Assembly: GCA_003477405.1 (NCBI GenBank)
Contig: QUDE01000016.1
Coordinates: 8,531-72,530, forward strand
Reading direction: 5' to 3'
Length of the DNA stretch: 64,000 bases
Origin: Ruminococcaceae bacterium AM07-15
GTDB lineage: Bacteria > Bacillota > Clostridia > Oscillospirales > Butyricicoccaceae
This document shows, in pieces, positions 4,969 through 22,795 of the stretch (positions within the stretch are counted from its first letter, which is position 1; every line of letters starts with the position of its first letter). The notes beneath the pieces are model-generated. The model ran no database searches. It was not told the DNA's origin and saw nothing but the letters and a program-made list of their open reading frames with translations. Both the position numbers and the translations under genes were made by a program.

Positions 4969-5727
4969 ATGGGGAAACCATTCAAATGTGCCCTGGTGGG
5001 CGGCGACGGGCGGCAAATCCTCCTGGGCCGCCTTCTGGAACAAGAGGGCTTTCCGGTGCGCCGCTTTGCTCTGCCGGAAGGGGAGAAACACCTGGAAGGG
5101 GCGCTGGCAGAAGCCGGGTGCGTGCTGCTGCCCCTGCCGGTGGAGCGGGAGGGACTGCTCAACGCTCCGCTCTGCAACGAGCAAAAATGGCCCATGGAAA
5201 AGATCCTGGAGGCCATACCCCGGGGCACCCTGGTGCTGGGGGGACAGGTGAGCGCCCACTTGCAAAAGTTGGGGGAGCAGCAGGGCCTGCGCCTTGTGGA
5301 CTACGGCGCACGGGAGGACTTCCTGTGCCGCAACGCCGCCATCACCGCCGAAGGGGCCTTGCAGCTGGCCATGGGCCACCACCAGGAAAGCCTGGGGGAT
5401 ACCCGGTGCCTGGTGCTGGGCTATGGCCGGTGCGGCAAGGCGCTGTGCCGGGCGCTGTCCGGCATCACCCGGCCCTGGGTGTGGGCCAGGCGGCCGGAGA
5501 TCAGAGCCCAGGCCCGGGCGGAGGGGTTCTTTGCCCCGGATACACTTGCGGAAGGGCTGAAGGGGGCCGGGGTGATTTTCAACACCGTGCCCGCTCTTCT
5601 GATCGGGGAAAATCAGGCCGGGCTGCTGGAAAAAGACAGCCTGTATCTGGAATTGGCCGGAAACCCAGGGGGGGCTGGATTTTTCGCCCAGGGGTCTTTT
5701 CAAACAGGGGGGAATGTGGTACAGTGA
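4969..5727 (+). CDS. dpaA: Dipicolinate synthase subunit A, 5' part, interrupted
   Basis: Codons 1-236 are dpaA. With DpaB, DpaA makes dipicolinic acid in the sporulating mother cell; DPA loads the spore core. The Rossmann glycine motif LVLGYGRCGKALCRALSG is at about residues 145-162, and the VIFNTVPALLI and YLELAGNPGGA segments match the catalytic half. At codon 236 (5674-5676) the frame enters the 13-bp core CCAGGGGGGGCTG. Beyond it come 16 foreign residues (GFFAQGSFQTGGNVVQ) and a stop. The missing C-terminus, with the family hallmark APGLPGKYAP, is at 22664-22795. Joining the cores gives 279 residues, near the usual ~290-300. The start is ATG with AAAGGA 9 bp upstream. As it stands the product should be inactive. 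Confidence 0.9.
   Translation: MGKPFKCALVGGDGRQILLGRLLEQEGFPVRRFALPEGEKHLEGALAEAGCVLLPLPVEREGLLNAPLCNEQKWPMEKILEAIPRGTLVLGGQVSAHLQKLGEQQGLRLVDYGAREDFLCRNAAITAEGALQLAMGHHQESLGDTRCLVLGYGRCGKALCRALSGITRPWVWARRPEIRAQARAEGFFAPDTLAEGLKGAGVIFNTVPALLIGENQAGLLEKDSLYLELAGNPGGAGFFAQGSFQTGGNVVQ
5665..5693 (+). other. Left recombination site (attL-like) in dpaA
   Basis: The core CCAGGGGGGGCTG (5665-5677) is identical to 22652-22664. The element-side arm CTGGATTTTTCGCCCAGGG (5675-5693) is the exact reverse complement of 22637-22655. Sequence left of the core is dpaA coding; sequence right of it is element. The layout is that of a hybrid attL made by a serine integrase. Confidence 0.9.
5697..5725 (+). promoter_or_regulatory. 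Candidate promoter just inside the element
   Basis: TTTTCA, 17 bp, TACAGT, right after the left att arm. It would drive the DUF4438 gene independently of dpaA. Confidence 0.4.
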
Positions 5728-5772
5728 AAGGCAGAAGATCCTTATTATGATCAAGGAAGGGGAAATTTCGTC

Positions 5773-6630
5773 ATGCTGAAAACAAACCGTGAAGATTTGC
5801 CCATGCTGCTGGTTCAGGGCCAGGTGCGCCACTCCAAGGGGGCCCAGGCCTATCGCCATACCATCGACGGCGAGCCGTTCACTCTGCCGGCCACCGGCGG
5901 CATCACCCTCAACGCCAAGATCGGCGATCGGTGCGTGGGCTGGGCCGCTGACCATCTGGAGCCCGGCGTCACCGCCCGCAATGAAAACGACGACTATAAC
6001 GCCGCTCTCCAGGGCCTGTCCTGCATCGGCAACACCGCCATTGTCATGTCTGGCGACGCCAAGGGCGCCCGTGGCTTTGTCACCGGCAAGCACGGCGGCT
6101 GCGAGCATCTGCTGTGCTACTTCGACCAGGAGACCATGGAGAAGATGACCATCGGCGATAAGATCGATGTGCGCAGCCAGGGCCAGGGCATGAAGCTGCT
6201 GGATTATCCCGACATCCTGCTGCGGAACATGAGCCCCGAGCTGCTGGAAAAGATGAACATCGAAGAGAAGGACGGCAAGCTGAAAGTGGGCGTTGCCAAG
6301 ATCGTTCCCGCCTGCATCATGGGCAGCGGCCTGGGCGCTTCCACCTCCTATTATGGGGATTATGACATCACCCTCCACGACAAGAAGATCACCGAGGAAT
6401 ATGGGCTGGACAAGCTGCGCTTCGGCGATATCGTGGCCATCACCGATGCCGACACCCGCTTCGGCCGCAACTTTATGACCGGTGCTATGACCATCGGCGT
6501 TGTGGTGCATTCCGACTGCATCCTGGCCGGTCACGGCCCTGGCGTCACCACTCTGATGACCTGCAAAACCCCGCTGATCGAAGCATTCATTGACGAAAAC
6601 GCCAACCTGGCAGACTACTTCGTGCGCTAG
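5773..6630 (+). CDS. DUF4438 domain protein
   Basis: 285 residues; start ATG with AAGGAAGGGG upstream. It matches, from memory, the DUF4438 family, which has no assigned reaction. Recognisable segments are ATGGITLNAKIGDRCVGW near residue 40, SGDAKGARGFVTGKHGG near 95-115 and VHSDCILAGHGPGVTTLMT near 250. No signal peptide or membrane segment. It is the first gene inside the element, with its own promoter candidate. Its stop codon (TAG) runs straight into the repeat palindrome GTGGCGAGCCGCCAC. Confidence 0.7.
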   Translation: MLKTNREDLPMLLVQGQVRHSKGAQAYRHTIDGEPFTLPATGGITLNAKIGDRCVGWAADHLEPGVTARNENDDYNAALQGLSCIGNTAIVMSGDAKGARGFVTGKHGGCEHLLCYFDQETMEKMTIGDKIDVRSQGQGMKLLDYPDILLRNMSPELLEKMNIEEKDGKLKVGVAKIVPACIMGSGLGASTSYYGDYDITLHDKKITEEYGLDKLRFGDIVAITDADTRFGRNFMTGAMTIGVVVHSDCILAGHGPGVTTLMTCKTPLIEAFIDENANLADYFVR

Positions 6631-6838
6631 TGGCGAGCCGCCACAGCCATACTGCGCTGCCGCGCTAGGCAATAGCGCTCAGGCCTGTTGTGTGTTGGGC
6701 AGCAAAGAAAAATATGGGTGCAGCGTCAAAAAAAGCCTCCCGGATAGGGAGGCTTTTTTGCTGTTTTGGTTCGTTGTTTTTGCCCCGGCAAAAAGGAATG
6801 GCTGTCCGGGCTCCGGACCAGCGTCACGCTGCCTGCCG
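6629..6838. repeat. Repeat mosaic with terminator
   Basis: Cap GTGGCGAGCCGCCAC, M1, a truncated CAGCGTCA cap, an intrinsic terminator (6728-6759, AAAAAAGCCTCCC...GGGAGGCTTTTTT), then caps ending in CAGCGTCACGCTGC against the 3' end of the convergent lipoprotein gene. Confidence 0.8.
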
Positions 6839-7378
6839 TTAATAGATTGCCTCGAGCTGCATCAAATCCAAAAGGGCGTAATAGGCATCGGGCTGGGCGG
6901 TCCAGTAGGTTTCCCAGTTTTGGGAGACACCGTGGGAGCCGATGCGGTTCCACACCCACACACGGGCACAATCGGGGCCCCAGGTGGCAATCTCGATAAA
7001 ATGCCAGGGGGTGTCGATCTCCACATAGGCTTCCGGGCCTTTCATGGCCCGGTCCACATCCTTACCCACCCAGTCATCCAAAGAGGGGGCGGCATAGGTC
7101 AGGCCCTCCACATAGGAGCGAACCAGGGCGAACTGCTCTTCGGTCATCTCCCGGCTGTTCAGGTGCAGGCCCTTGCCGTCATCGGCGTAAGGCTCCAGTC
7201 GTACCAGGTCCTGGTCCAGGTCCACCTGGGCCAGGGCTTCGGTGACCCGCGCCTGCCGGGTTTCTTTTTCTTCCTGGGTCAGTGGGGGCTTTTCTTCCTC
7301 CTCCTTGCGGCAGCCCATGGGGAAGAGAAGCAGAAGGGCCAAAAGGAGAAGTGTCCATCTGGGATGTATTCGTTTCAT
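6839..7378 (-). CDS. Small lipoprotein, function unknown
   Basis: 179 residues from ATG at 7378, chosen because GGAGGG lies 7 bp upstream and the N-terminus is then MKRIHPRWTLLLLALLLL followed by the lipobox LFPMGC. An acidic, lysine-rich stretch (RKEEEEKPPLTQEEKE) links to a soluble domain with many aromatic residues (WHFIEIATWGPDC, WETYWTAQPDAYYALL). I recognise no family. It is anchored to the outer face of the membrane by inference from the lipobox. It is transcribed opposite to the DUF4438 and recombinase genes inside the element. Confidence 0.65.
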   Translation of the reverse strand: MKRIHPRWTLLLLALLLLFPMGCRKEEEEKPPLTQEEKETRQARVTEALAQVDLDQDLVRLEPYADDGKGLHLNSREMTEEQFALVRSYVEGLTYAAPSLDDWVGKDVDRAMKGPEAYVEIDTPWHFIEIATWGPDCARVWVWNRIGSHGVSQNWETYWTAQPDAYYALLDLMQLEAIY

Positions 7379-7439
7379 CGTCGATCCCTCCTCCATTTTT
7401 ATTTAATGTGATAATAACATAAAGTAAAGAAAAACGCAA

Positions 7440-8052: not shown

Positions 8053-8288
8053 TTGTTCACCCCCATATTCAGATGCACCGGTGGATGCAGCGAAGGTCTG
8101 TTATATTATTGATGTACTACTATACTAAAATCAATATATCATAGAACACCCTACTTGGCAATATTTTTCATAATCTCATCTCTCTTCGCCTGAACGAAAA
8201 CAACCGGCCTGCGTTCTGTTGCCCAGCGCGGCAGCGCAGTATGGGGGCGGAGGCACTCCGCATAGATATGTGACAGGAGGGGATATCT
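8053..8288. promoter_or_regulatory. Divergent regulatory region between membrane gene and recombinase
   Basis: AT-rich (8101-8170) followed by an M1 tail and cap GCGGAGGCACTCCGC. CATAGAAC at 8140-8147 resembles a SigE -10 box (CATACAAT), with ATACT at 8122-8126 as a poor -35. A second CATA (8261) is too near the ribosome binding site. Nothing here is decisive about the sigma factor. Confidence 0.3.
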
Positions 8289-9416: not shown

Positions 9417-9468
9417 GGGCGAGAAATTGTCCCTTTCCACAAAAAAGGCCCCTTTTGCGAAATTCCTG

Positions 9469-9503: not shown

Positions 9504-9688
9504 AGTTATTGCAATCGGGAGAGAGAGGGTGCAGGCTGCTATGAAAAAGTGTTTTGCCATTCTGATGGGCGAAATCCAGGGGCCTTGTGCGCCCACATTT
9601 TCCCGGGTGCAGGGATGAAAAGCTGTGGAGTTTTCGCCGCGGCTTTTTTCTTTTCAAAAATCCACCTTCGGAGAAAGGAAGTTTTCCC
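9504..9688 (+). promoter_or_regulatory. purE leader with attenuator-like hairpin and possible leader peptide
   Basis: A terminator-like hairpin sits at about 9617-9650: AAAAGC pairs with GCTTTT around an imperfect GC stem and is followed by TTTTTTC. A short reading frame (GTG 9529 or ATG 9541, ending TGA at 9618) precedes it. It has no match to the xpt/pbuE purine riboswitch core that I could find. It probably attenuates the pur operon, by a ligand or a translation-coupled route not yet clear. Confidence 0.45.
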
Positions 9689-10189
9689 ATGGAAAAAAAT
9701 AAAGTAGCCATTATCATGGGCAGCGACAGTGACCTGCCTGTGGTGGAAAAAACCATCCACACGCTGAAAGACCTGGGCATCCCCTTTGAGGCCCATGTGA
9801 TGAGCGCCCACCGTACCCCGGAAGAGGCCTGCACCTTCGCCCGGGAAGCGGCCGGTAAGGGCTTCGGCGTCATCATCGCCGCCGCCGGTAAAGCCGCTCA
9901 TCTGGCCGGTGTGCTGGCCGGGCATACACCCCTGCCCGTCATCGGCATCCCCATGAAGAGCTCCACCATGGACGGACTGGATTCCCTTTTGTCCACCGTG
10001 CAGATGCCTTCCGGCGTGCCGGTGGCCACCGTTGCCATCGATGGGGCGGAAAACGCCGGACTGCTGGCCGCTCAGATGCTGGCCATCGCTGATGAAAGCC
10101 TTTTTGCCAAGCTCCAGGAAAAGAAGGAGCAGATGCGGCAGAAGGTCATCGAAAAAGACAAAAAGCTCCAGGAAAAGCTCCAGGGCTAA
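9689..10189 (+). CDS. purE: N5-carboxyaminoimidazole ribonucleotide mutase / AIR carboxylase catalytic subunit
   Basis: 166 residues; ATG at 9689 with GGAGAAAGGAAG upstream. Class I PurE signature: [13 protein letters not shown] at the start, [10 protein letters not shown] and [22 protein letters not shown], followed by [22 protein letters not shown]. It converts N5-CAIR to CAIR in de novo purine synthesis. First gene of a nine-gene operon reading away from the recombinase. No purK is seen in the window. A lysine-rich tail ([15 protein letters not shown]) extends the protein. Confidence 0.95.
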
Positions 10190-10227
10190 TGATATCGGAT
10201 ACACAGGATACGAGGAGGAAGTTTATC

Positions 10228-10938
10228 ATGGAAAAGCGCGAGCAGCTCTACGAAGGAAAGGCCAAGAAGGTTTTTGCAACAGACGATAAAGAAAAGCTGA
10301 TCGTCTCCTATAAGGACGACGCCACCGCTTTCAACGGCGAAAAGAAGGGCACCATCCACGGCAAAGGCGTCATCAACAACCGGATGAGCAATCATCTGAT
10401 GCGCCGCCTGGAAAAGGAAGGGGTTCCTACCCACTATGTGGAAGAGCTCTCCGGCACCGATACCGTGGTGAAGAAAGTGAGCATTGTGCCCCTGGAAGTC
10501 ATCATCCGCAACATTTCCGCCGGTTCCTTTGCCAAGCGTTACGGCGTGGAGGAAGGCATCGTCTTTGACGCTCCCACCATCGAGTTTTCCTACAAAAACG
10601 ACGACCTGGGCGATCCCCTGATCAACTCCTACCATGCTCTGGCTCTGAAGCTGGCCACCCGCGAAGAGATCGAGACCATCAAGAAGTATGCCTTTAAGGT
10701 CAACGACCTGCTGAAGGGCTTCATGAAGGAGATCGGCATCGATCTGGTGGACTTCAAGCTGGAGTTTGGCCGTCTTTCCGACGGCACCATCGTCCTGGCC
10801 GACGAGATCAGCCCCGACACCTGCCGCCTGTGGGACGAAAAGACCCATGAAAAGCTGGACAAGGACCGCTTCCGCCGGGATCTGGGCGGCGTAGAGGACG
10901 CCTACCAGGAAGTGATGAAGCGCCTGATGGGCGAATAA
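10228..10938 (+). CDS. purC: SAICAR synthetase
   Basis: 236 residues from ATG at 10228 (GAGGAGGAAG upstream). PurC signature segments [45 protein letters not shown] and [14 protein letters not shown] are present in the usual order. It joins CAIR and aspartate using ATP. It follows purE by 38 bp and precedes purF by 29 bp in the same operon. Confidence 0.95.
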
Positions 10939-10967: not shown

Positions 10968-12395
10968 ATGCAGGAAAAGCTCCACGAGGAATGTGGCGTT
11001 TTTGGTATTTACGATAACGACAACCTGGATGTGGTCACATCCACTTATCTGGCCCTGTATGCCTTGCAGCACCGGGGCCAGGAAAGCTGCGGCATCGCCG
11101 TCAATGACGACGGCGTCATCCGCAGCTACCGGGATCTGGGCTTGGTCACCGATGTGTTCAAGCCCCAGGTGCTGGAAAAGCTGGGCAGCGGCAAAATGGC
11201 CATCGGCCACTGCCTCTATGGCACCGCCGAAAGCGACAAGCGGGAAAATGCCCAGCCCATGACCATCCGCCATGTGAAAGGCCAGATGGCCATTGCCAAC
11301 AACGGCGTGGTTTTGAACGCCTATGAGCTGCGGCAGAAGCTGGAGCTCCAGGGCGCCATTTTCCATTCCACCAGCGATGCAGAGCTGATCGCCCACATGA
11401 TCACCCGTGAGCGGCTCACCGCCGGTTCCATCGAAGAGGCCATCTGCAACGCCATGGACAAGCTGTATGGCACCTATTCCATGCTGGTCATGTCCCCCAA
11501 AAAGCTCATCGGCGTGCGGGACCCCCTGGGTATGCGCCCCCTGAGCATCGGCAAGTGCGAAAACAGCTATGTGCTGGCTTCCGAAACCGCCGCGCTGGAC
11601 AGCATGGGCGCCCATTTCGTCCGGGATGTGAAGCCCGGCGAGATCGTCATCATCGACGAAAACGGCCTGCGCAGCATCGAAAAGCACTGCGGCCAGAAGA
11701 GCCATCTGTGCGTCTTTGAGTTCGTCTATTTCGCCCGGCCCGACTCGGTGATCGAAGGCACCAGCGTCCATCTGGCCCGGCAGAAGATGGGCGAGTTCCT
11801 GGCCAAAGAGCATCCGGTGGAGGCCGACCTGGTGATGGGCGTGCCCGACAGCGGCAACGACGCTGCCCTGGGTTATGCCAACGCCTCCGGCATCCCCTAT
11901 GGCATCGGCCTGATCAAAAACAAGTACATCGGCCGTACCTTTATCCTCAACACCCAGAAGCAGCGGGAAAACGCCGTGCGCATCAAGCTCAACGCCATTG
12001 CCGACATCGTCCGGGGCAAGCGGATTGTGCTGGTGGACGACTCCATCGTCCGGGGCACCACCTCCGCCCGCATCGTGCGGATGCTGCGGGAGGCCGGGGC
12101 CAAAGAGGTGCATATGCGGATTTCCTCCCCGCCTTTCCGCTATCCCTGCTACTTCGGCACCGACATCGACTCGCCGGAGCGGCTGATTGCCAACAACATG
12201 ACCATCCCCGAGATCGGCCAGAAGATCGGGGTGGATTCCCTGGGCTTCCTCAGCCTAGAAAACATCGTCAAGGTGGCGGAACATTCCGACTGCCAGTTCT
12301 GCACCGGCTGTTTCAGCGGTGAATATCCCCTGAATGTGGAAAACGCTGGCAAGGTCTCCAAGTTTGACCGGAAGATCAGCGAAAACAACGATTGA
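10968..12395 (+). CDS. purF: Amidophosphoribosyltransferase (GPATase)
   Basis: 475 residues. A short propeptide ends before the catalytic cysteine of ECGVFGIYDN (Cys9). The glutaminase domain has HRGQESCGI, HCLYGTAES and NNGVVLN. The phosphoribosyltransferase domain has the PRPP-binding VLVDDSIVRGTTSARIV. A cysteine-rich C-terminus (CQFCTGC) plus an internal cysteine suggest the 4Fe-4S type, as in B. subtilis. It commits PRPP and glutamine to purine synthesis. Because it sits on the excisable element, a cell that loses the element would lose this first step. Confidence 0.95.
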   Translation: MQEKLHEECGVFGIYDNDNLDVVTSTYLALYALQHRGQESCGIAVNDDGVIRSYRDLGLVTDVFKPQVLEKLGSGKMAIGHCLYGTAESDKRENAQPMTIRHVKGQMAIANNGVVLNAYELRQKLELQGAIFHSTSDAELIAHMITRERLTAGSIEEAICNAMDKLYGTYSMLVMSPKKLIGVRDPLGMRPLSIGKCENSYVLASETAALDSMGAHFVRDVKPGEIVIIDENGLRSIEKHCGQKSHLCVFEFVYFARPDSVIEGTSVHLARQKMGEFLAKEHPVEADLVMGVPDSGNDAALGYANASGIPYGIGLIKNKYIGRTFILNTQKQRENAVRIKLNAIADIVRGKRIVLVDDSIVRGTTSARIVRMLREAGAKEVHMRISSPPFRYPCYFGTDIDSPERLIANNMTIPEIGQKIGVDSLGFLSLENIVKVAEHSDCQFCTGCFSGEYPLNVENAGKVSKFDRKISENND

Positions 12396-12406: not shown

Positions 12407-13438
12407 ATGAAGAGTTTTAGCGACAGCTACAAGGCCGCCGGCGTGGATGTGACGGCGGGATACAAAGCAGTGGAGCTGATGAAGGAGCACACCAAGCGGA
12501 CCATGATCCCCGGCGTGCTCTCCGGCCTGGGCGGCTTCGGCGGCCTGTTCGGCCTGGATGTAAGTGGCATGAAAGAACCGGTGCTGGTTTCCGGCACCGA
12601 CGGCGTGGGCACCAAAATCCGCCTGGCCCAGCTGATGGGAAGGCACGACACCATCGGCATCGACTGCGTGGCCATGTGCGTCAACGACATCGTCTGCGCC
12701 GGAGCCAAACCCCTGTTTTTCCTGGATTACATCGCCTGCGGCAAGAATGTGCCGGAGAAGATCGCCTCCATCGTTTCCGGCGTGGCTGAGGGCTGCGTCC
12801 GTTCGGGCTGCGCCCTCATCGGCGGCGAGACCGCCGAGCACCCCGGCGTCATGCCTGACGACGACTACGACCTGGCGGGCTTCACCGTGGGCGTGGTGGA
12901 CAAGGAGAAGATCCTGGACCCAAGCAATGTGCAGGCGGGGGACGCCATCATCGCCCTGCCTTCCAGCGGCATTCACAGTAACGGCTTCTCTCTGATCCGG
13001 AGAGTGTTCGACCTGGAAGGGAAGGGGGACTTCTATTCTCCCGAGCTGGGCGGCAACCTGTTTGAGACCCTGCTCACCCCCACAAACCTCTATGTGAAGC
13101 CGGTGCTCCATCTGATGGAGCAGGTGCCGGTGCACTCTGTGTGCCACATCACAGGGGGCGGCTTCTATGAAAATATTCCCCGTGCTCTGCCCCAGGGCCT
13201 GAGCGCCAGCATCGAAAAGAAGAATGTGCGTGTGCTGCCCATCTTTGACCTGATCGCAAAAGAAGGGAATGTGCCCGAGCACGATATGTTCAACACCTAC
13301 AACATGGGCGTTGGCATGTGCTGCATCCTGCCTTCCGATAAGGCGGACGAAGCCATCCGGGTGCTGAAGAGCGCTGACCAGGATGCCTATGTGCTGGGCG
13401 AAGTGGTGAAGAGCGACGAGGGCGTGAGGCTGTGGTAA
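12407..13438 (+). CDS. purM: AIR synthetase (FGAM cyclo-ligase)
   Basis: 343 residues; ATG at 12407, with GAGAGGACGGA upstream, starts 11 bp after purF. AIRS-family signature: YKAAGVDVTAGYKAVE at the N-terminus, LVSGTDGVGTKIRLAQ, GGETAEHPGVMPDDDYDLAG and GIHSNGFSLIRR. It closes the imidazole ring of AIR from FGAM with ATP. The stop codon overlaps the purN start, so the two are coupled. Confidence 0.95.
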   Translation: MKSFSDSYKAAGVDVTAGYKAVELMKEHTKRTMIPGVLSGLGGFGGLFGLDVSGMKEPVLVSGTDGVGTKIRLAQLMGRHDTIGIDCVAMCVNDIVCAGAKPLFFLDYIACGKNVPEKIASIVSGVAEGCVRSGCALIGGETAEHPGVMPDDDYDLAGFTVGVVDKEKILDPSNVQAGDAIIALPSSGIHSNGFSLIRRVFDLEGKGDFYSPELGGNLFETLLTPTNLYVKPVLHLMEQVPVHSVCHITGGGFYENIPRALPQGLSASIEKKNVRVLPIFDLIAKEGNVPEHDMFNTYNMGVGMCCILPSDKADEAIRVLKSADQDAYVLGEVVKSDEGVRLW

Positions 13439-14040
13439 AGATCGGCGTGCTGGTTTCCGGCGGCGGCACCAATCTGCAGGCCCTGCTGGATGCCCAGAAG
13501 CGGGGAGAAATTCCGGACGGGGAGATCACTCTGGTGATCGCCAGCCGGAAAAAAGCCTATGCTCTGGAACGGGCCAGAATGGCGGGGGTTCCCGCCCTGG
13601 CCCTGCCCCGCCGGGACTATGAAAAGACGGCGGATTATGACGCAGCGCTGCTCGGGGCCTTGCAGGAGGCCGGAGTGGAGCTGGTGGTGCTGGCAGGCTT
13701 CCTCTGCGTGCTGGGGGAGAAGATGCTGAAAGGCTACGAGGGGCGCATCGTCAATGTGCACCCCTCTCTGATTCCGGCCTTCTGCGGCGACGGCTTCTAT
13801 GGCCTCCATGTCCACGAAGCCGCCCTTGAGAGAGGGGTGAAGGTCACCGGGGCCACAGTGCATCTGGTGAACGAAGTGACCGACGGCGGCCCCATCCTGC
13901 TGCAAAAGGCGGTGGAGGTGCTGGAAGGCGACACCCCCGAAAGTTTGCAGAAGCGGGTGATGGAGCAGGCCGAATGGGTGCTTTTGCCCCAGGCCGTTTC
14001 TATGCTCTGCCAGAAGATCGAAAAGGAGAAACACCAATGA
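13432..14040 (+). CDS. purN: GAR transformylase
   Basis: 202 residues, starting at GTG 13432 inside the end of purM (7-bp overlap). It has the formyltransferase fold signature VLVSGGGTNLQALLDA, the catalytic NVHPSLIPAFCG and LVNEVTDGGPILLQKAV. It transfers a formyl group from 10-formyl-THF to GAR. Its stop overlaps the start of the next gene (ATGA). Confidence 0.95.
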   Translation: MVKIGVLVSGGGTNLQALLDAQKRGEIPDGEITLVIASRKKAYALERARMAGVPALALPRRDYEKTADYDAALLGALQEAGVELVVLAGFLCVLGEKMLKGYEGRIVNVHPSLIPAFCGDGFYGLHVHEAALERGVKVTGATVHLVNEVTDGGPILLQKAVEVLEGDTPESLQKRVMEQAEWVLLPQAVSMLCQKIEKEKHQ

Positions 14041-14747
14041 ATATTTACGCCAAAGAGTCCCTCTTTGACAAGCTGAAAGACAATACCTATCCCGGCCGGG
14101 GCATTGTGCTGGGCGTCACCCCCGATGGGAAGTGCTCGGTGGCTGCCTATTTCATCATGGGCCGCAGCGCAAACAGCCGCAACCGGGTATTCTGCAAGGA
14201 GCCCGACGGCATCCGCACCCAGGCCCACGATCCTTCCAAGCTGGAGGACCCCAGCCTGATTATCTATCATCCGGTGCGTCAGATGGGCCGTGGTTTGATT
14301 GTGACCAATGGCGATCAGACCGACACCATCCGGGACTTTCTGGAAAAAGGACTGCCCATGGAGCAGGCCCTGCGCACCCGGGAATTTGAGCCCGACGGCC
14401 CCAACTGGACCCCCCGGATCTCCGGCCTGCTCAGCCCCGACGGCAGCTGCAAAATGTCCATCCTGAAAAGCGTGGACGAAAATGGCTCGGGCTGCGTGCG
14501 CCAGACCTTTGAATATCCCAATGTGCCCGGCCTGGGCTGGTTCCTCCACACCTATGTGTGTGACGGTAACCCCATTCCCACCTTCCAGGGTGAGCCGGAG
14601 CGGGTGGAAATGCTGGACGACATGGATGCTTTCACCGACAAACTGTGGGAGAGCCTGAACGAACAGAACAAAATCTCCCTTTATGTGCGCTATACCTGCC
14701 TGGAGACAGGGGAGTACAACGAGCGCATCATCAACAAACACCAATAA
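14037..14747 (+). CDS. purO: PurO-type IMP cyclohydrolase
   Basis: 236 residues, ATG overlapping the purN stop. It belongs to the IMP_cyclohyd family (PurO type), first known from archaea, and not to the C-terminal half of bacterial PurH; typical segments are YPGRGIVLGVTPDGK, YFIMGRSANSRNRVF, YHPVRQMGRGLIVTNGDQTD and PNWTPRISGLL. It closes the second ring (FAICAR to IMP). It pairs with a separate AICAR formyltransferase encoded next, replacing bifunctional PurH. The symbol purO is by homology. Confidence 0.85.
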   Translation: MNIYAKESLFDKLKDNTYPGRGIVLGVTPDGKCSVAAYFIMGRSANSRNRVFCKEPDGIRTQAHDPSKLEDPSLIIYHPVRQMGRGLIVTNGDQTDTIRDFLEKGLPMEQALRTREFEPDGPNWTPRISGLLSPDGSCKMSILKSVDENGSGCVRQTFEYPNVPGLGWFLHTYVCDGNPIPTFQGEPERVEMLDDMDAFTDKLWESLNEQNKISLYVRYTCLETGEYNERIINKHQ

Positions 14748-14767: not shown

Positions 14768-15946
14768 ATGAACGAGCTGGAACTGAAATACGGCTGCAAC
14801 CCCAACCAGAAGCCCTCCCGCATTTATCGGCAGGGTGGCGGGGAACTGCCCATCAAGGTGCTTTGCGGAAAGCCGGGCTATATCAATTTCCTGGATGCCT
14901 TTAACTCCTGGCAGCTGGTGCGGGAGCTGAAAATGGCCACCGGCCTGCCCTCGGCCGCTTCCTTCAAGCATGTGTCCCCGGCCGGCGCCGCCGTGGGCCT
15001 GCCCCTGAGCCGCACCGACCGGAAGATCTATTTTGTGCCCATGGAAAAAGAGCTCAGCCCCATCGCCTGCGCCTATATCCGGGCCAGAGGCGCCGACCGG
15101 CTCTGTTCCTATGGGGACTGGGCGGCCCTCAGCGATATCTGTGACGCCGACACCGCCCGCTACATCAAGCAGGAGGTCTCCGACGGCGTCATCGCCCCGG
15201 GCTATACCCCCGAGGCTCTGGAGATCCTCAGCCAGAAAAAGGGCGGCAAATACAATGTGGTGGAGATCGACCCCGACTATGTGCCCCAGAAAACCGAGCA
15301 CAAGGATGTGTTCGGCATCACCTTTGAGCAGGGGAGAAACGATCTCATCATCAATGAAGAGATGCTCCAGAACATCGTCACCAAGAATCGCGACCTGCCG
15401 GAGAGCGCCGTCCTCGACATGATCGTGGCCCTGATCACACTGAAATACACCCAGTCCAACTCGGTGTGCTTCGTGAAAAACGGCCAGGCCATCGGCGTGG
15501 GCGCCGGACAGCAGAGCCGTATCCACTGCACCCGCCTGGCCGGGCAGAAGGCCGACAACTGGTATCTCCGCCAGCATCCCAAGACCCTGGCCTTGCAGTT
15601 CGTGGACAAGATCCGCCGCCCCGACCGGGACAACGCCATCGATATTTATCTCTCCGATGAATACGAGGACATCCTCCAGGAGGGCGTGTGGCAGCAGACC
15701 TTCAAAGTAAAGCCCGAGCCCTTGACAGCGGAGGAAAAGAAAGCCTGGATCGCAACTCAATCCGGTGTTACCGTGGGTTCCGATGCCTTCTTCCCCTTCG
15801 GGGACAATGTGGAGCGGGCCAGAAAGAGCGGCGTTTCCTACATCGTGGAGCCGGGCGGCTCCATCCGGGACGATCATGTGATCGAAACGGCGGACAAATA
15901 CGGCATGGTCATGGCCTTCACCGGCCTGCGGCTGTTCCATCATTGA
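14768..15946 (+). CDS. AICAR formyltransferase (stand-alone PurH transformylase)
   Basis: 392 residues from ATG 14768 (AAAGGAG upstream, 20 bp after the previous stop). It resembles the AICARFT domain of PurH: YGCNPNQKPSRIY at the start, SFKHVSPAGAAVGLPL with the Lys-His pair, YTQSNSVCFVKNGQAIGVGAGQQSR in the middle (given here as family segments) and a GSDAFFPFGDNVERA end. The cyclohydrolase domain is absent and is supplied by the preceding gene. Folate-dependent step 9 of purine synthesis. Confidence 0.9.
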   Translation: MNELELKYGCNPNQKPSRIYRQGGGELPIKVLCGKPGYINFLDAFNSWQLVRELKMATGLPSAASFKHVSPAGAAVGLPLSRTDRKIYFVPMEKELSPIACAYIRARGADRLCSYGDWAALSDICDADTARYIKQEVSDGVIAPGYTPEALEILSQKKGGKYNVVEIDPDYVPQKTEHKDVFGITFEQGRNDLIINEEMLQNIVTKNRDLPESAVLDMIVALITLKYTQSNSVCFVKNGQAIGVGAGQQSRIHCTRLAGQKADNWYLRQHPKTLALQFVDKIRRPDRDNAIDIYLSDEYEDILQEGVWQQTFKVKPEPLTAEEKKAWIATQSGVTVGSDAFFPFGDNVERARKSGVSYIVEPGGSIRDDHVIETADKYGMVMAFTGLRLFHH

Positions 15947-15965: not shown

Positions 15966-17252
15966 ATGATGAACCTTCTGGTGATCGGCGGCGGCGGACG
16001 GGAGCACGCCATCATCAAAAAGCTCCGGGAAAACAAACAGGTGAAGAAGATCTACGCTCTGCCGGGCAACGGCGGCATCGGTGAGGACGCCCAGTGCGTC
16101 CCCATCAAGGCCACCGATGTGGAGGGCGTGCTGGAATTCGCCAAAAGCCACAAGGTGGATTTTGCGGCGGTGATCCCTGACGATCCTCTGGCCCTGGGGA
16201 TGGCGGACAAGCTGCGGGAGATGGGCATCCCCACCTTCGGCCCCACCGCTCAGGCGGCGGAAATCGAAAGCAGCAAGGTCTTTGCCAAAAACCTGATGCA
16301 GAAATACCACATCCCCACAGCGGACTACCAGGTGTTTGACCAGGCGGAAAAGGCCATGGAATATATCACCAGCAAGAACAAATACCCGGTGGTCATCAAG
16401 GCCGACGGTCTGGCCCTGGGCAAGGGCGTTATCATCGCCCAGGATGCTCAGGCGGCCAAGGAAGCCGTGGAAGCCATTATGAACGAGAAGATCTTCGGCA
16501 AAAGCGGCGACCAGGTGATCGTGGAGGAGTTTTTGCAGGGGCCGGAAGTTTCCGTCCTCTCCTTCACCGACGGGGAAACTCTGGTGCCCATGGTCACCTC
16601 CATGGACCACAAGCGGGCCTATGACGGGGACGAAGGCCCCAACACCGGCGGTATGGGCGCCGTGGCCCCCAACCCCTATTACACCAAAGAAGTGGCCGAA
16701 CGGTGTATGGAGGAAATCTTCCTGCCCACCATCCGGGCCATGAAGCAGGAGGGGAGACCCTTCCAGGGCTGTCTGTATTTCGGCCTGATGCTCACTCCCG
16801 ACGGCCCCAAGGTCATCGAGTACAACTGCCGTTTCGGCGATCCCGAAACCCAGGTGGTGCTGCCCCTGCTGAAAACCGACCTGCTCACCATTTTCCAGGC
16901 GGTGATGGAAGGCAAGCTCCATGAGCAGAAGGTGGAATTTCTGGACAAGGCCGCCTGCTGCGTCATTCTGGCCTCCGGGGGCTATCCCAAGAATTATTAC
17001 ACCGGCCTGCCCATCTCCGGCATCGGGGATGCAGAGCAGATGGAGGATGTGTCGGTCTATCACGCCGGCACCAAAATGGAGGACGGCAAGCTGCTGACCG
17101 CCGGAGGCCGGGTGCTGGGCGTCACCGCTTTGGCAAATGATCTGACCGGAGCCATGGAGAAGGCCTATGAGGCCGCCGGGAAGATCCATTTTGACAATAT
17201 GCATTACCGCCGGGATATCGGCCGGCGGGCGCTTTCCATGAGGGGGGAATAA
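15966..17252 (+). CDS. purD: GAR synthetase
   Basis: 428 residues. Nucleotide-binding GGGGREHAIIKKL is at the N-terminus; the ATP-grasp domain has KADGLALGKGV, MGAVAPNPYYT and EYNCRFGDPETQVVLPLL. It ligates glycine to phosphoribosylamine. ATG at 15966, or possibly 15969, with GGGGAGGGC upstream. It follows the formyltransferase by 19 bp and precedes purL by 2 bp. Confidence 0.95.
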   Translation: MMNLLVIGGGGREHAIIKKLRENKQVKKIYALPGNGGIGEDAQCVPIKATDVEGVLEFAKSHKVDFAAVIPDDPLALGMADKLREMGIPTFGPTAQAAEIESSKVFAKNLMQKYHIPTADYQVFDQAEKAMEYITSKNKYPVVIKADGLALGKGVIIAQDAQAAKEAVEAIMNEKIFGKSGDQVIVEEFLQGPEVSVLSFTDGETLVPMVTSMDHKRAYDGDEGPNTGGMGAVAPNPYYTKEVAERCMEEIFLPTIRAMKQEGRPFQGCLYFGLMLTPDGPKVIEYNCRFGDPETQVVLPLLKTDLLTIFQAVMEGKLHEQKVEFLDKAACCVILASGGYPKNYYTGLPISGIGDAEQMEDVSVYHAGTKMEDGKLLTAGGRVLGVTALANDLTGAMEKAYEAAGKIHFDNMHYRRDIGRRALSMRGE

Positions 17253-17254
17253 CC

Positions 17255-20200
17255 ATGGCCGTTTATCGAGTTTATGTGGAAAAAAAGCCGGGCTTTGACC
17301 AGGAAGCCCGCCATGTGCTGGAAGAGCTGCAAGGGCTGCTGGGGCTGAAGGGGCTCACCGGCCTGCGGCTCTTCAACCGCTACGATGTGGAGGGCATCGG
17401 CAAGGAGCTGTTCGATCAGTGCATCGACACCGTCTTTTCCGAGCCCCAGGTGGACACCGCTTATGAAACCCTGCCGGAGCTTTGTGGCCCCGTGCTGGCT
17501 ACCGAGTATCTGCCCGGTCAGTATGACCAGCGGGCCGATTCCTGCGCCCAGTGCATCCAGTTCGTCTCCCAGGGCGAACGGCCCACCGTGCGCACCGCCC
17601 GGCTCTATGCTCTGGAAGGGCAGCTTTCCCAGGAAGAGCTGGAAAAGGTGGAAAAATACCTGATCAACCCGGTGGAGAGCCGCAAGGCCACACTGGATGC
17701 CTTTGACACCTTGCAGGTGCAGTACCCGGCCCCCCAGATGGTGGAGACCATGGAAGGCTTCACCAAGCTGGAAGACGAAGAGCTGAAAGCCTTTATCGCC
17801 AAATACGGCCTGGCCATGGACCTGGGGGACATCCGCTTCTGCCGGGATTACTTCCGGAAAGAGGGAAGAGAGCCCACCATCACCGAAATCCGCATGATCG
17901 ACACCTATTGGTCCGATCACTGCCGTCACACCACCTTCTCCACCATCATCGACGATGTGGAAATCAAAGACGCCGGGGCCAAGGAGAGCTACGGCATGTA
18001 CGAGGGCCTGCGGGAGATCGTTTACCAGAACCGGAGCCCCAAGCCGGTCACTTTGATGGACCTGGCCACCATCGGCGCCAAGTACCTGAAAAAGATGGGC
18101 AAGCTGCCGGAGATCGATGAATCCGAAGAGATCAACGCCTGCTCCATCAAGGTGAAAGTGGAGACCGAGGACGGCAGCGAAGACTGGGTGCTCATGTTCA
18201 AAAACGAGACCCACAACCATCCCACCGAGATCGAGCCCTTCGGCGGGGCTGCTACCTGCATCGGCGGCGCCATCCGTGACCCCCTGTCTGGCCGCAGCTA
18301 TGTGTACCAGGCCATGCGTGTCACCGGTGCAGCCGATCCCCTGAAACCCATGGAGGAAACCCTGCCCGGCAAGCTGCCCCAGCGGAAGATCGTCCAGACG
18401 GCGGCGGCTGGTTACAGCTCCTATGGCAACCAGATCGGTCTGGCCACCGGCCTGGTCCATGAATTTTACCACCCCGGCTATGTGGCCAAGCGCATGGAAA
18501 TCGGCGCTGTGGTGGGCGCGGCTCCGGCGGAGAACATCCGGCGTGAGCGTCCGGCTCCCGGGGATGTGATCGTCCTGCTGGGCGGCCGCACCGGCCGTGA
18601 CGGCTGCGGCGGCGCCACCGGTTCCTCCAAGGCCCACACCGTGGAGTCTTTGGAGACCTGCGGGGCCGAGGTGCAGAAGGGCAACGCCCCCGAAGAGCGG
18701 AAGATCCAGCGTCTGTTCCGCAACAAGGATGTCACCGCCATGATCAAGCGGTGCAATGACTTTGGTGCAGGCGGCGTGTCGGTGGCCATCGGCGAGCTGG
18801 CCGACGGCCTGGATGTGGATCTGGACAAGGTGCCCAAGAAGTACGAGGGATTGGACGGCACCGAGCTGGCCATCTCCGAAAGCCAGGAGCGTATGGCCGT
18901 GGTCATCGCCAAAGAGGATCAGGCCCGCTTCCTGGAAGAAGCCGGGAAGGAGAACCTGGAAGCCACTGTGGTGGCCGTGGTCACAGAGGAGCCCCGTCTG
19001 CGGATGCACTGGCAGGGTAAGACCATTGTAGACCTGTCCCGGGAGTTTCTTTCGTCCAATGGCGCCGAAAAGCACATCAAAGTGGTGATCGAAGCGCCGG
19101 AAGAGCTGAAAGAGGAAGCCACCGAGCCCACCGCCGAAAACTACAAAAAGGTGCTGGGCCAGCTGAATGTGTGCTCCCAGAAGGGCCTTGTGCAGCGGTT
19201 TGACAGCACCATCGGAGGGGGTACCGTGCTCATGCCCTTTGGCGGCCAGCGGCAGATGACCCCCACCCAGGTGATGGCGGCCAAGCTGCCGGTTCTGGGC
19301 AAGGAGACCAAGACCTGCTCGGTGATGGCCTATGGCTTCGATCCCTTCCTCAGCGAAAAGAGCCCCTATCGGGGCGCTTATCAGGCTGTGGTGGAATCGG
19401 TGTGCAAGCTGTCTGCGGCCGGCGCTTCCTATAAGGACTGCTACCTGACTTTCCAGGAGTATTTTGAGAAGATGGGCCAGGACCCCTCCCGCTGGGGCAA
19501 GCCCATGGCCGCTTTGCTGGGCGCTCTGCTGGCCCAGAAGCAGCTGGAGGCCGGCGCCATCGGCGGCAAGGACAGTATGTCCGGCTCTTTTGACAAGATC
19601 GATGTGCCTCCCACTCTGGTGAGCTTCGCCATCGCTCCCGCCTGCACCGACCGGGTGATCTCGCCCGAGTTCAAGCAGCCGGGAAGCCGTGTGGTGCTGC
19701 TCCAGGTTCCTCAGAACAAGGAGGGGCTGTTTGAAGAAAACGACCTGCGCCATACCCTGGAGCAGGTGGAAGAGCTGATTGGCCAGGGCCTGGTGCGGAG
19801 TGCCTATGTGCCCTCCTTCGGCGGCGTGGGCGCTGCTGTGGCCGTGATGGCCTTCGGCAACGGCCTGGGCTTTGCCTTTGACAAGGGCTTTGAGGGTGTG
19901 TTCGACACCCGCCGGGGCGCGTTTGTGCTGGAGCTCAGCGAGAATGCCCCCATGGTGGGCACTCTGGTGGGCCATACCCAGATGAAGGCCAGCATCGCTT
20001 TGCCCTCCGGGGAAGAAGTGGAGCTTTCCGCTCTGGAAGAGGCCTGGAAGGCCACTCTGGAGCCGGTGTTCCCGGAAAAGACAAAGGAAGAGGGGACTGT
20101 GCCCGCCTTCCGCTTTGAGACGGAAAACCGCAAGGCTCCGGCTGTGAAGGTGGCAAAGCCCCGGGTGCTCATCCCGGTGTTCCCCGGCACCAACTGCGAA

Positions 20201-20956
20201 TATGACACCGCCCGGGCCTTCCAGAAGGCTGGGGCCGAGGCGGAAATTCTGGTGCTGCGCAACCTGACCGCCTCCCAGCTGACCCAGTCGGTGGAGCGGA
20301 TGGTGGGGGCCATGGAGCGCAGCCAGATCATCGCCATTCCCGGCGGCTTCTCCGGCGGCGACGAGCCGGAAGGCTCCGCCAAGTTCATCACCGCCTTCTT
20401 CCGCAATCCCCAGGTGACCGAAGGGGTGCACAAGCTGCTGAAAGAGCGGGACGGCCTGATGATCGGCATCTGCAACGGCTTCCAGGCCCTGATCAAGCTG
20501 GGGCTGGTGCCCTATGGCGAGATCCGCCGCACCACTGCCGAGGATGCCACCTTGACCTATAATGTGATCGGCCGCCACCAGTCCGGTCTGGTGCGCACCG
20601 CCGTTTGCTCCAACCTGTCTCCCTGGCTGATGCTCAGTGAGGTGGGGGATGTGCACACCATCGCCATTTCCCACGGCGAAGGCCGTCTGGTGGCTCCCCA
20701 GAGCCTGCTGGACACCCTGGCCGCAAAGGGTCAGATCGCCACTCAGTATGTGGATCTGGACAATAAGCCCACCATGGATGTGGCTTATAACCCCAACGGT
20801 TCCTTCTGTGCCATCGAGGCCATCACCTCTCCCGACGGACGGGTGCTGGGCAAGATGGGCCACACCGAGCGTTTCGGCGACAATCTCTATAAGAATGTGC
20901 CCGGCCACAAGGACCAGAAGCTGTTCGAAGGCGCTGTGAAGTATTATTCCCTCTAG
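17255..20956 (+). CDS. purL: FGAM synthetase, single large polypeptide
   Basis: 1233 residues, the fused form containing both synthetase and glutaminase. An N-terminal domain (about 1-200), AIRS-like ATP-binding domains with NETHNHPTEIEPFGGAA near residue 315, and GGKDSMSGSFDK near 770 are followed by the glutaminase domain from about 970: IPVFPGTNCEYDTARAF, AIPGGFSGGDEPEG, the nucleophile cysteine in IGICNGFQALIKLG and ISHGEGRLVA. It converts FGAR to FGAM. Last gene of the pur operon; a repeat array begins right after the stop codon (CTAG). Confidence 0.95.
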   Translation: MAVYRVYVEKKPGFDQEARHVLEELQGLLGLKGLTGLRLFNRYDVEGIGKELFDQCIDTVFSEPQVDTAYETLPELCGPVLATEYLPGQYDQRADSCAQCIQFVSQGERPTVRTARLYALEGQLSQEELEKVEKYLINPVESRKATLDAFDTLQVQYPAPQMVETMEGFTKLEDEELKAFIAKYGLAMDLGDIRFCRDYFRKEGREPTITEIRMIDTYWSDHCRHTTFSTIIDDVEIKDAGAKESYGMYEGLREIVYQNRSPKPVTLMDLATIGAKYLKKMGKLPEIDESEEINACSIKVKVETEDGSEDWVLMFKNETHNHPTEIEPFGGAATCIGGAIRDPLSGRSYVYQAMRVTGAADPLKPMEETLPGKLPQRKIVQTAAAGYSSYGNQIGLATGLVHEFYHPGYVAKRMEIGAVVGAAPAENIRRERPAPGDVIVLLGGRTGRDGCGGATGSSKAHTVESLETCGAEVQKGNAPEERKIQRLFRNKDVTAMIKRCNDFGAGGVSVAIGELADGLDVDLDKVPKKYEGLDGTELAISESQERMAVVIAKEDQARFLEEAGKENLEATVVAVVTEEPRLRMHWQGKTIVDLSREFLSSNGAEKHIKVVIEAPEELKEEATEPTAENYKKVLGQLNVCSQKGLVQRFDSTIGGGTVLMPFGGQRQMTPTQVMAAKLPVLGKETKTCSVMAYGFDPFLSEKSPYRGAYQAVVESVCKLSAAGASYKDCYLTFQEYFEKMGQDPSRWGKPMAALLGALLAQKQLEAGAIGGKDSMSGSFDKIDVPPTLVSFAIAPACTDRVISPEFKQPGSRVVLLQVPQNKEGLFEENDLRHTLEQVEELIGQGLVRSAYVPSFGGVGAAVAVMAFGNGLGFAFDKGFEGVFDTRRGAFVLELSENAPMVGTLVGHTQMKASIALPSGEEVELSALEEAWKATLEPVFPEKTKEEGTVPAFRFETENRKAPAVKVAKPRVLIPVFPGTNCEYDTARAFQKAGAEAEILVLRNLTASQLTQSVERMVGAMERSQIIAIPGGFSGGDEPEGSAKFITAFFRNPQVTEGVHKLLKERDGLMIGICNGFQALIKLGLVPYGEIRRTTAEDATLTYNVIGRHQSGLVRTAVCSNLSPWLMLSEVGDVHTIAISHGEGRLVAPQSLLDTLAAKGQIATQYVDLDNKPTMDVAYNPNGSFCAIEAITSPDGRVLGKMGHTERFGDNLYKNVPGHKDQKLFEGAVKYYSL

Positions 20957-21458
20957 CCAGCGGTGGCGTGTCGCCACTCCCATACTGCGCTCCCGCGCTG
21001 GGCAATCGAACCAGGAATAAAGCAAAAAAAGACCTCCCAAAAGGGAGGCGGAGTGCCTCCGCAGCCGTTCCTCTCTTTGCCCAGGCAAATACAACCGGCA
21101 AAGGCAAAGAGAGTATGGGTGTCCGGCCACCGGACCGCTGCCGCGTTGGGCAATCGAACCAGGAATAAAGCAAAAAAAGACCTCCCGAAAGGGAGGCGGA
21201 GTGCCTCCGCAGCCGTTCCTCTCTTTGCCCAGGCAAATACAACCGGCAAAGGCAAAGAGAGTATGGGTGTCCGGCCACCGGACCGCTGCCGCGCTGGGCA
21301 ATCGAACCAGGGATAAAGCAAAAAAAGACCTCCCAAAAGGGAGGTCTTTTTTATTGTGTGATTTGCCAGGACTGCACTCTGGCTGCTTCCGGCGGAGCCG
21401 GAGCACCGAGGGTTACAACGCATCAAGCCAGGGAGAGTATGCCAGCGGAGGCACTCCG
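20957..21458. repeat. Tandem 148-bp repeat array plus terminator
   Basis: After cap GTGGCGTGTCGCCAC come two near-identical 148-bp units (21001-21148 and 21149-21296) and a partial third. Each begins GGCAATCGAACCAGGRATAA and contains half-terminator GACCTCCC...GGGAGG, GCGGAGTGCCTCCGC, an M1 tail and GTCCGGCCACCGGAC. Only the last one completes a terminator with a T-run (21318-21351). An M2 variant and cap GCGGAGGCACTCCG then reach the next gene. Confidence 0.85.
21318..21351. terminator. Terminator ending the pur operon region
   Basis: AAAAAAAGACCTCCC-AAAA-GGGAGGTCTTTTTTA; symmetrical enough to work in both directions. Confidence 0.8.
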
Positions 21459-22496
21459 TTAGAGGAGGTGGGCCACCAGGTCGGTGAGGGTGGGGAACAA
21501 TGCCACCACCACGATCATACGCAGGGTCTGCATGGCGGCCACCTTGGCCGGGTCGGCTCCCAGCTCGGCGGCAATGATGGACATATCGCTCACCCCGCCA
21601 GGGGCCGAGGCAAACAGGGAAGTGGTCAGGCCCAGCTTGCCAAACCGGGACACCGAGAACCCCACGATCAGGTTGATGCAGGCCAGGGCCAGCACCAATA
21701 TCACCGCAGGCAGGGCCACCTGCCGTAGTCCCAGCACCTCCGCCATGCCCATGCCCGAGCCGATGATGGCCCCGCTGAAAGTCTGGGTCACATTGCGGAA
21801 ATTCTTGGGAAGCTGTACCCGGTGGCCGGAAAAGGTGAGCACCATGGCCCCCACCATGGCCCCGATCATGGCCCCGGAGGGGATATCCAGGGCATTGAAC
21901 AGCAGCCCGCCGATGAGCCCGGCCACCGCCAGGGCCAGGTATTGCTTTTTGGAATAGCTCTCCTTGGGCAGGGCAGAAGGGTCCACCGGGGTTACCTCCG
22001 GTTGGGAGCCGTGGCTGGCCGCCCGCTTGAGCAAGGCCGGCATGAAGGCAATGACGAAGATCACCCGCACCGTCTGCAAAATGGCCACCTGGCCTGCATC
22101 GGCCCCCAGATCATCGGCCACCAGGGTCATCTCCTGGATGCCCCCTGGGGCCGCGGCCAGAAGGGCGGTTTTGGGGTCCAGCTGGCTGACGGCGCTGATG
22201 CCGATGCCCACGCACAGATTGAGGAAAATCAATCCGAACACCATCATGATGGTGGCGGGGAGGATGGAGCGCAGGCTGAGCACATCCTTGGCGCTCATGC
22301 GGGTGCCGATATAGACTCCGGCCATGATGCGGATATAGGGCCGGAAGGGATCGGGCACATTGGCGCAGTCCCACAGAATGTTCATGATGAGCACAGCGAT
22401 CATGGCGCCGATGATGGTACCGGCGGGCAGGCGCAGTTTGCGGCCGATGAAGCCGCCCAGGGCGGCCACGGCCACGGTGAGCAGAAAGGTTGGCAT
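21459..22496 (-). CDS. AbrB-family (AimA-like) membrane transporter
   Basis: 345 residues from ATG 22496 (AGAGGAAG upstream). It has two homologous halves, each with about five membrane helices. The halves share the motif AAAPGGIQEMTLVADDLGADAGQVA (first half) and ASAPGGVSDMSIIAAELGADPAKVA, followed by QTVRV/QTLRMI. This is the AbrB/AmoA-type permease family, linked elsewhere to ammonia-monooxygenase-like annotation and to AimA glutamate uptake in Bacillus. Substrate here is unknown. Last gene inside the element, pointing inward. Confidence 0.8.
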   Translation of the reverse strand: MPTFLLTVAVAALGGFIGRKLRLPAGTIIGAMIAVLIMNILWDCANVPDPFRPYIRIMAGVYIGTRMSAKDVLSLRSILPATIMMVFGLIFLNLCVGIGISAVSQLDPKTALLAAAPGGIQEMTLVADDLGADAGQVAILQTVRVIFVIAFMPALLKRAASHGSQPEVTPVDPSALPKESYSKKQYLALAVAGLIGGLLFNALDIPSGAMIGAMVGAMVLTFSGHRVQLPKNFRNVTQTFSGAIIGSGMGMAEVLGLRQVALPAVILVLALACINLIVGFSVSRFGKLGLTTSLFASAPGGVSDMSIIAAELGADPAKVAAMQTLRMIVVVALFPTLTDLVAHLL

Positions 22497-22636
22497 AGGG
22501 CATCTTCCTCTTTTCCCAGTGAGATTGTTTCTGTTATCAGTATAGCACAGGGCCGGGGAAAGGGGGCTCAATCCCGGCGAATTTGGCAAAATAGCAGGAA
22601 ATCATAGCAATTTACACAAATTTTACGGGGGCGTTT

Positions 22637-22664
22637 CCCTGGGCGAAAAATCCAGGGGGGGCTG
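22637..22664 (+). other. Right recombination site (attR-like) in dpaA
   Basis: The element-side arm CCCTGGGCGAAAAATCCAG (22637-22655) is the perfect inverse of the left arm and runs into the 13-bp core CCAGGGGGGGCTG (22652-22664). To the right, dpaA coding resumes. The rejoined chromosome site would have only an imperfect dyad (about 10 of 21 positions), as is usual for attB. Confidence 0.9.
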
Positions 22665-22795
22665 ATTTTTCCGCCCTGGAGAAACAGGGGGTACTCTGTC
22701 GGAAAGCCCCCGGCCTGCCGGGAAAATACGCACCCCTCAGCGCCGCCCGGGCCATCCGGGATACATTGCACACCATTTGGGAGGAGGAAAATTGA
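22664..22795 (+). CDS. dpaA: Dipicolinate synthase subunit A, 3' part, detached
   Basis: Reading from the core's last G (22664), 43 codons and TGA follow in frame with no start codon of their own: ADFSALEKQGV, then APGLPGKYAPLSAARAI and HTIWEEEN. APGLPGKxAP is the C-terminal hallmark of DpaA, absent from the 5' part at 4969-5727. The fragment is uninterrupted and its stop overlaps the dpaB start (TGATG), the arrangement expected of an intact dpaA-dpaB operon. This shows that the two dpaA pieces were once contiguous and that the frame is being kept. Confidence 0.9.
   Translation, partial: DFSALEKQGVLCRKAPGLPGKYAPLSAARAIRDTLHTIWEEEN

Follow-up and report, generated by a model that had tools for sequence, protein, structure and literature searches.

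The 64,000-nucleotide stretch of contig QUDE01000016.1 from Ruminococcaceae bacterium AM07-15 (hereafter, the window) holds the dipicolinate synthase gene dpaA in two halves, the second running directly into dpaB (Table 1). The gene is interrupted at codon 236 by 16,987 bp (core end to core end) lying between 13-bp direct cores, CCAGGGGGGGCTG, a sequence that occurs exactly twice in the window, both times on the plus strand. Family matches to DpaA and DpaB were obtained. Alone, the N half stays open for 16 codons of inserted sequence, up to a stop at 5725-5727 (252 aa in total), and scores under the DpaA equivalog cut-offs, as expected of half a protein. Joined across the core, the halves give 840 nt of unbroken frame encoding 279 aa, with the junction PGGADFSALEKQGV; the product aligns over its full length with ten DpaA proteins that relatives encode in one piece (37-45% identity), and the cut falls within a PGG motif invariant in that alignment. 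The stop of the C half (TGA, 22793-22795) overlaps the dpaB ATG at 22795. An earlier sequence-only reading had described 236 codons running to a 13-bp core present in two copies, a 43-codon C terminus whose stop overlaps dpaB, a 279-residue in-frame join and a serine recombinase within the insert; all of this was borne out, the recombinase matching Resolvase, Recombinase and zinc ribbon families.

Attachment sites, recombinase and close relatives

Beyond what that reading had noted, the two inner arms of the element form a perfect 19-bp inverted repeat. On the predicted circle they flank five G, giving a palindromic attachment (att) site, attP. It pairs at 19/22 positions; 2000 outer-arm shuffles averaged 10 and never exceeded 15. 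By the same measure attB and attL pair at 11/22 and attR at 14/22; only attP is clearly symmetric. An attP symmetric round its central bases is described as typical of phage serine recombinases (PMC5595907). The nearest relative (G001) retains the core and the two arms with one change, and Candidatus Pseudobutyricicoccus lothianensis (G002) retains GGGGGGCTG, with weaker arms. A half-site motif scan was discarded as an att-site detector, being non-specific (9 places in the window versus 2.05 expected, three of them at att sites), and a tRNA as insertion target was ruled out, with zero tRNA in the window.

The closest solved chains to the 375-aa recombinase by sequence are TnpX, presumably the recombinase of transposon Tn4451, and the SPbeta integrase; the best Protein Data Bank match is TnpX (2mhc, E 2.3e-28), the catalytic domain of the window enzyme being TnpX-like. 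A structure prediction (mean predicted local distance difference test 80, predicted template modelling score 0.49) has as its top structural neighbours SPbeta integrase complexes 9y66, 9dxh and 9dxd, of YokA (which we take to be SprA) with the directionality factor YotN (presumably SprB). The window recombinase lacks the C-terminal coiled coil that follows the zinc ribbon in large serine integrases: 55 residues come after its last zinc cysteine, and the model shows only a 14-residue helix there. Recombinases at this insertion point (site I) have 0-107 residues past the last zinc-cysteine column in 6/6 cases, versus 162-194 in 17/17 other aligned relatives; judged from the alignment, the segment absent from site I enzymes is the region carrying the coiled coil. 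In studied serine integrases this region prevents attL x attR recombination without a helper, and LI integrase deltaCC is reported as moderately efficient at attL x attR where the wild type is inactive, with zero activity in another assay (PMC3783163). The loss would fit an enzyme whose retained role is excision and which needs no directionality factor; because the coiled-coil region is missing, the recombinase may excise helper-free, controlled by expression alone. In a 46-row tree the six site I recombinases cluster (95/95), L064 being a long branch whose placement the tool called unsure, and the 16 sampled recombinases from a second site (site II, below) form one clade (100/100). By this tree, recombinases sort by insertion site.

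Both congeners compared, G001 and G002, split dpaA at the same codon as the window and have an identical cargo order. Identity to the window is 93% (G001) and 40% (G002) for the N half (DpaA_N) and 93% and 63% for the recombinase; a dpaA search of the two genomes finds only the two halves, plus one weak partial match in G002 (E 5e-5). Ratios of non-synonymous to synonymous substitution (dN/dS) were 0.25 for the N half, 0.03 for the C half and 0.16 for the recombinase against G001, and 0.55, 0.25 and 0.30 against G002, where dS is 1 or more. The sequence-only reading had looked to relatives for an uninterrupted gene, or else for decayed halves. Decay was not found, both halves being open and, by dN/dS, constrained, and an uninterrupted gene was: a protein search with the joined DpaA gave 1661 matches, and the best of the 120 listed, P0001, is an unsplit 271-aa protein from a European Nucleotide Archive metagenome. 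Its junction, NPGGADFSALEKQGVLCRKAPGLPG, is exactly as predicted, and its identity to the joined halves is 92.6% for the window and 94.4% for G001; P0002 and P0003 are N halves of the split form. To judge by P0001, the predicted join occurs in nature among the closest kin.

Two insertion sites and their cargo

We counted by hand dpaA arrangements in 87 genomes of the family. Site I is split in three: G001, G002 and G013, the last with dpaA on two contigs and, by eye, an adjoining recombinase end with a long C terminus. Fifteen are split at site II, about codon 130 (11 on one contig, four on two), 51 have a one-piece dpaA (33 full length, 18 with an unmatched N terminus), one (G025) has a frame-broken dpaA that ends at site II, next to the end of its contig, and 17 give weak DpaA matches at best. 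DpaA was matched at 1e-12 in 92 of 117 genomes sampled from the order. The gene is divided in three of the 92: in G001, in G172 by 5.9 kb at site I and in G139 by 43 kb at site II. In G152 a C half alone was seen, where a contig ends. Scanning the recombinase alignment added two site I splits, L054 in G198 and L064 in G199 (about 2.5 kb). Related recombinases accompany the site I splits of G198 (47% identity), G199 (41%) and G172, placing this combination in both congeners and at least one other family. To judge by how far its carriers have diverged, the dpaA split is apparently old.

At site II, both sides of the join were available for 10 of 14 genomes and are of the type NAVP[TV] to xEGA, and in 13/16 the recombinase gene neighbours the C half and is read from the opposite strand; the exceptions are G084 (same strand), G067 (beside the N half) and G139 (2.4 kb away). 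A small open reading frame (ORF) of ~37-69 codons stands just before most site II recombinases (for example L107, L119 and L041) and could encode a directionality factor or other partner. Six genomes (G137, G185, G161, G146, G174 and G109), five of them in one family (f23), have a one-piece DpaA with a single in-frame stop. A recombinase relative in Butyricicoccus sp. Marseille-Q5471 (L092) was rejected as marking another split gene, its neighbours looking by eye like an unrelated mobile region; the same genome has its dpaA, split at site II, on a different contig.

The cargo of the window element is a purine biosynthesis operon of nine purine genes. PurL has a single match in G001 and in G002, within the dpaA element in both, and lies outside dpaA in 17 of 18 other genomes searched; in the eighteenth, G013, dpaA is on two contigs and PurL on a third. 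The distance between PurL and dpaA is ~11 kb in G083 and 19 kb in G014. From these positions, resident genes were likely trapped between the sites. A foreign island was ruled out by the absence of a shift in G+C content (0.595, against 0.589 and 0.606 in the surroundings). Among the scanned ORFs of the element there were no phage and no conjugation genes, and no transposon or mobilisation genes, copies elsewhere in the genome not having been searched for.

Some more distant carriers enclose a seryl-tRNA synthetase gene: in G172 and G198 the sole serS above the family cut-off sits between the dpaA halves, adjoining a sodium:solute symporter (in L054 and, by eye, in G172). Site II elements of G041, G042, G048 and G054 carry a Spo0A-like regulator with receiver and Spo0A_C domains that scores under the Spo0A cut-off; all four genomes also have an above-cut-off Spo0A elsewhere. 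The element of G020 has a xanthine-permease-type transporter. A common purine-metabolism theme (pur genes, G020 permease) was rejected given the other cargo: serS, the Spo0A-like regulator, ribonuclease H and a chemoreceptor. A growing cell that excised the element would lose such genes, from which we infer that excision either takes place only in a terminal cell or has ceased.

Repeats accompany these genes in the window. After purL, positions 20988-21344 hold a 148-bp unit in two tandem copies (98%) and an incomplete third, with terminator-like hairpins, and a short intergenic repeat family of the AGCGTGACGCTGG..CCCATACTGCGCT type occurs in both orientations round and inside the element. No structured RNA matched Rfam at the gathering threshold in window positions 1-26000.

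Table 1. Positions of features in the window and, with locus handles, in relatives
Feature	Position	Strand	Basis or remark
-10-like box CATAGGAT (CATANNNT) of putative mother-cell sigma promoter	4940..4947	+	putative sigma assignment
dpaA N-terminal half	4969..5677	+	236 codons
Left core CCAGGGGGGGCTG (attL side)	5665..5677	+	exact search of window
Left inner arm CTGGATTTTTCGCCCAGGG	5675..5693	+	inverted repeat of 22637-22655
DUF4438 protein	5773..6630	+	family match; kept in G001 and G002 elements
Lipoprotein-like ORF (by eye)	6839..7396	-	no Pfam match; no tblastn hit in G001/G002 elements
Serine recombinase, 375 aa	8289..9416	+	Resolvase, Recombinase and partial zinc ribbon matches
purE	9671..10189	+	scanned stretch; first ATG ~9690
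purC	10189..10938	+	family match
purF	10968..12395	+	family match
purM	12410..13438	+	family match
purN	13432..14040	+	family match
IMP cyclohydrolase-like protein	13974..14747	+	family match
AICAR formyltransferase (purH-like)	14771..15946	+	family match
purD	15966..17252	+	family match
purL	17255..20956	+	family match
AbrB-family membrane protein	21459..22589	-	family match; membrane protein by eye
Right inner arm CCCTGGGCGAAAAATCCAG	22637..22655	+	inverted repeat of 5675-5693
Right core CCAGGGGGGGCTG (attR side)	22652..22664	+	exact search of window
dpaA C-terminal half	22664..22795	+	43 codons and stop
dpaB	22795..23367	+	family match
Intergenic repeats	4683-4778, 6623-6675, 7707-7763, 8200-8256, 20956-21008, 23424-23862	both	
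Spo0A-like regulators in site II dpaA elements	L105:1931-2686, L107:868-1614, L119:52-792, L110:6637-7377		
sigG halves, G041	L166:5885-6256, L167:3910-4398	-	
sigG halves, G048	L164:3577-3978, L165:2863-3396		
sigG halves, G062	L168:3728-4024, L169:3087-3629		
sigG, G139	L161:407-769		C half from profile match only
sigG, G020	L162:1790-2167		

Sporulation context

The sequence GCATAGGATG sits 29 bp ahead of dpaA in the window. The CATANNNT box, which we take to be the -10 pattern of sigma E and sigma K, lies no more than 75 bp before dpaA in 31 of 40 loci (1.93 expected under mononucleotide shuffling), and none precedes dpaB on the plus strand in 22400-22795. Leaders of site II recombinases carry it in 14/16 (0.71 expected), the leader stretch having been set after a first look at positions and the shuffles preserving base content only. 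A sigma box for the site I recombinase was rejected as inconsistent.

Published lists include spoVFA among sigma K genes (PMC3416734), and dipicolinate is reported to be produced in the mother cell (PMC5629000). Germinated gut endospores are reported as enriched for Butyricicoccus (PMC9543051), which speaks for sporulation in the family. G001 has Spo0A above the cut-off, two full-length SigK/SigE-type frames and a 263-aa SigG-like frame, the sigma frames being named by position and none scoring above the SigK cut-off.

Other sporulation sigma genes are also divided in relatives with a split dpaA. The forespore gene sigG is broken between VRFSTYAVPM and PMIIGEIRRYLRD, with a serine recombinase of 458-486 aa directly before its C half in the four genomes where this was seen; in G041 the sigG halves lie 112 kb apart in an order that makes the along-gene interval about 3.1 Mb. 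A split forespore gene would place the rearrangement in the germ line. N-terminal halves of sigK in G139 (L170:1245-1592, with L171) and G002 (L172:1804-2244) end at model position 114, which we take to be the region where the known skin site lies; in G139 the C half lies on a separate contig, next to a recombinase-like ORF of 589 aa.

Interpretation and significance

We consider it probable that the window holds a skin-like element in dpaA, with excisional rejoining as its likeliest function. The direct cores, the palindromic attP arms, the element's own recombinase, the in-frame join, the relatives' halves, the recurrence and the unsplit allele, all read from sequence, argue for it. Under this model, the recombinase would excise the 17-kb segment as a circle in the mother cell during sporulation, rejoining dpaA and putting dpaA and dpaB behind one promoter, after which dipicolinic acid could be made; the dying mother cell would discard working housekeeping genes with the element. 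We infer that the sites are active, that a mother-cell sigma factor is linked to the switch and that excision is confined to the mother cell, as loss from the germ line would cost purine synthesis (PurL being single-copy in both congeners) and, in the cousins, the only seryl-tRNA synthetase. A further-reaching reading sees a bacterial germ line and soma: indispensable genes would ride on DNA that the mother cell discards to start dipicolinate synthesis, their presence would lock the split in place, since a growing cell losing the element would lose its purine operon or serS, and a recombinase without a coiled coil would excise helper-free. To this we give an even chance.

The sequence-only reading had proposed a skin-like dpaA switch and knew of no described case. 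The switch gains support from the anatomy, the intact halves in relatives, the recurrence in several lineages and the unsplit allele, and searches of the open-licence PubMed Central (PMC) literature gave no published split of dpaA or spoVFA. That account needs amending in two respects: the element belongs to a wider set with two insertion sites, and it is not prophage-like, holding instead a resident-looking purine operon.

Several observations weigh against a working switch. No recombination directionality factor was identified, attB pairing (11/22) is not above that of shuffled attP arms, exact attP and attB patterns had 0 matches in viral contigs, and neither excision product nor circle was seen in DNA. 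The P0001 contig is 2,413 bases long and may come from an element-free strain rather than represent an excision product. For G041, split at site II, a rejoined allele was sought and none was found among the matches listed: the best 120 of 425 include no full-length unsplit allele above 79% identity, against 98% for the split C half. The N-half dN/dS against G002 is 0.55, at a dS of about 1. G002 and G013 are among the 9/40 loci without CATANNNT before dpaA, and site I recombinases have no consistent box (2/6, far upstream). The 17 of 87 family genomes with weak DpaA matches at best may point to decay of sporulation in some branches of the family.

These 17 genomes, the unseen excision and the likewise split sigG and sigK of some relatives would also suit a locked-in relic, in which dpaA is dead and the lineage is non-sporulating or makes spores without dipicolinate. 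We regard this as unlikely: both halves are open and constrained, no in-frame stop occurs in any half listed (though G025 has its frame break), one recombinase group has stayed with site I in different genera and in two families or more, and G001 retains Spo0A together with its SigK/SigE-type and SigG-like frames. Slightly less plausible still is an ordinary TnpX-like mobile element that targets a conserved dpaA codon and leaves occasionally, with no developmental control. TnpX is the closest solved relative by sequence, recombinases 37-40% identical occur in human faecal phage records, a 42% identical one lies in Butyricicoccus sp. Marseille-Q5471 with no dpaA within 10 kb, and P0001 could be read as an allele that such an element left unsplit; this account is opposed by single-copy metabolic cargo (pur genes, serS) with G+C like its surroundings, by the lack of phage or conjugation genes among the window element ORFs scanned and by the sorting of recombinases by site. 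An assembly artefact joining two genomes or repeats was rejected, its probability being negligible: G001 and G002, separate assemblies, repeat the arrangement, each on one contig.

Read as a developmental switch in dpaA, the element joins the known intervening elements skin in sigK, vfbin in spoVFB, vrin in spoVR, SPbeta in spsM, gin in gerE and yin in yabG, as described in PMC10747680, PMC4191935, PMC5025042 and PMC5595907. vfbin of Bacillus weihenstephanensis likewise splits a dipicolinate synthase gene and is rearranged in sporulation, but the gene encodes the other subunit, the host belongs to another bacterial class and phage-related genes are reported, as opposed to a housekeeping operon here (PMC4191935, PMC10747680). 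Like the window element, skin of B. subtilis and C. difficile splits a mother-cell gene in frame and is described with an internal serine recombinase, short cores and inverted repeats (PMC5025042); unlike it, skin is prophage-like and in C. difficile needs a directionality factor, whereas here none was identified and the recombinase has no coiled coil. gin of B. cereus ATCC10987 is also non-prophage, with a 9-bp consensus, imperfect inverted repeats and sporulation excision, but is reported to have three recombinase genes and 28.6 kb of exogenous DNA (PMC5595907), compared with the one recombinase found and resident-looking cargo here. SPbeta, whose integrase complexes are the top structural neighbours and whose excision is sporulation-timed (PMC4191935), differs as an active prophage with a 545-aa integrase chain and a directionality factor, against 375 aa and no phage genes among the ORFs scanned. 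TnpX, the best structural-database sequence match, is a transposon recombinase, whereas no transposon genes were found among those ORFs. New here are the gene affected, the recurrence of the split at two codons, housekeeping genes as cargo and a shortened recombinase.

Genome annotation should take warning that dpaA may be called broken or missing where it is merely split. The persistence of intervening elements becomes directly testable, with cargo as a ratchet that needs no regulatory benefit. Dipicolinic acid is described as central to spore resistance against wet heat and desiccation (PMC5629000). If the switch works, its synthesis in these Clostridia would be gated by irreversible DNA surgery, and bacteria would have programmed elimination of housekeeping genes.

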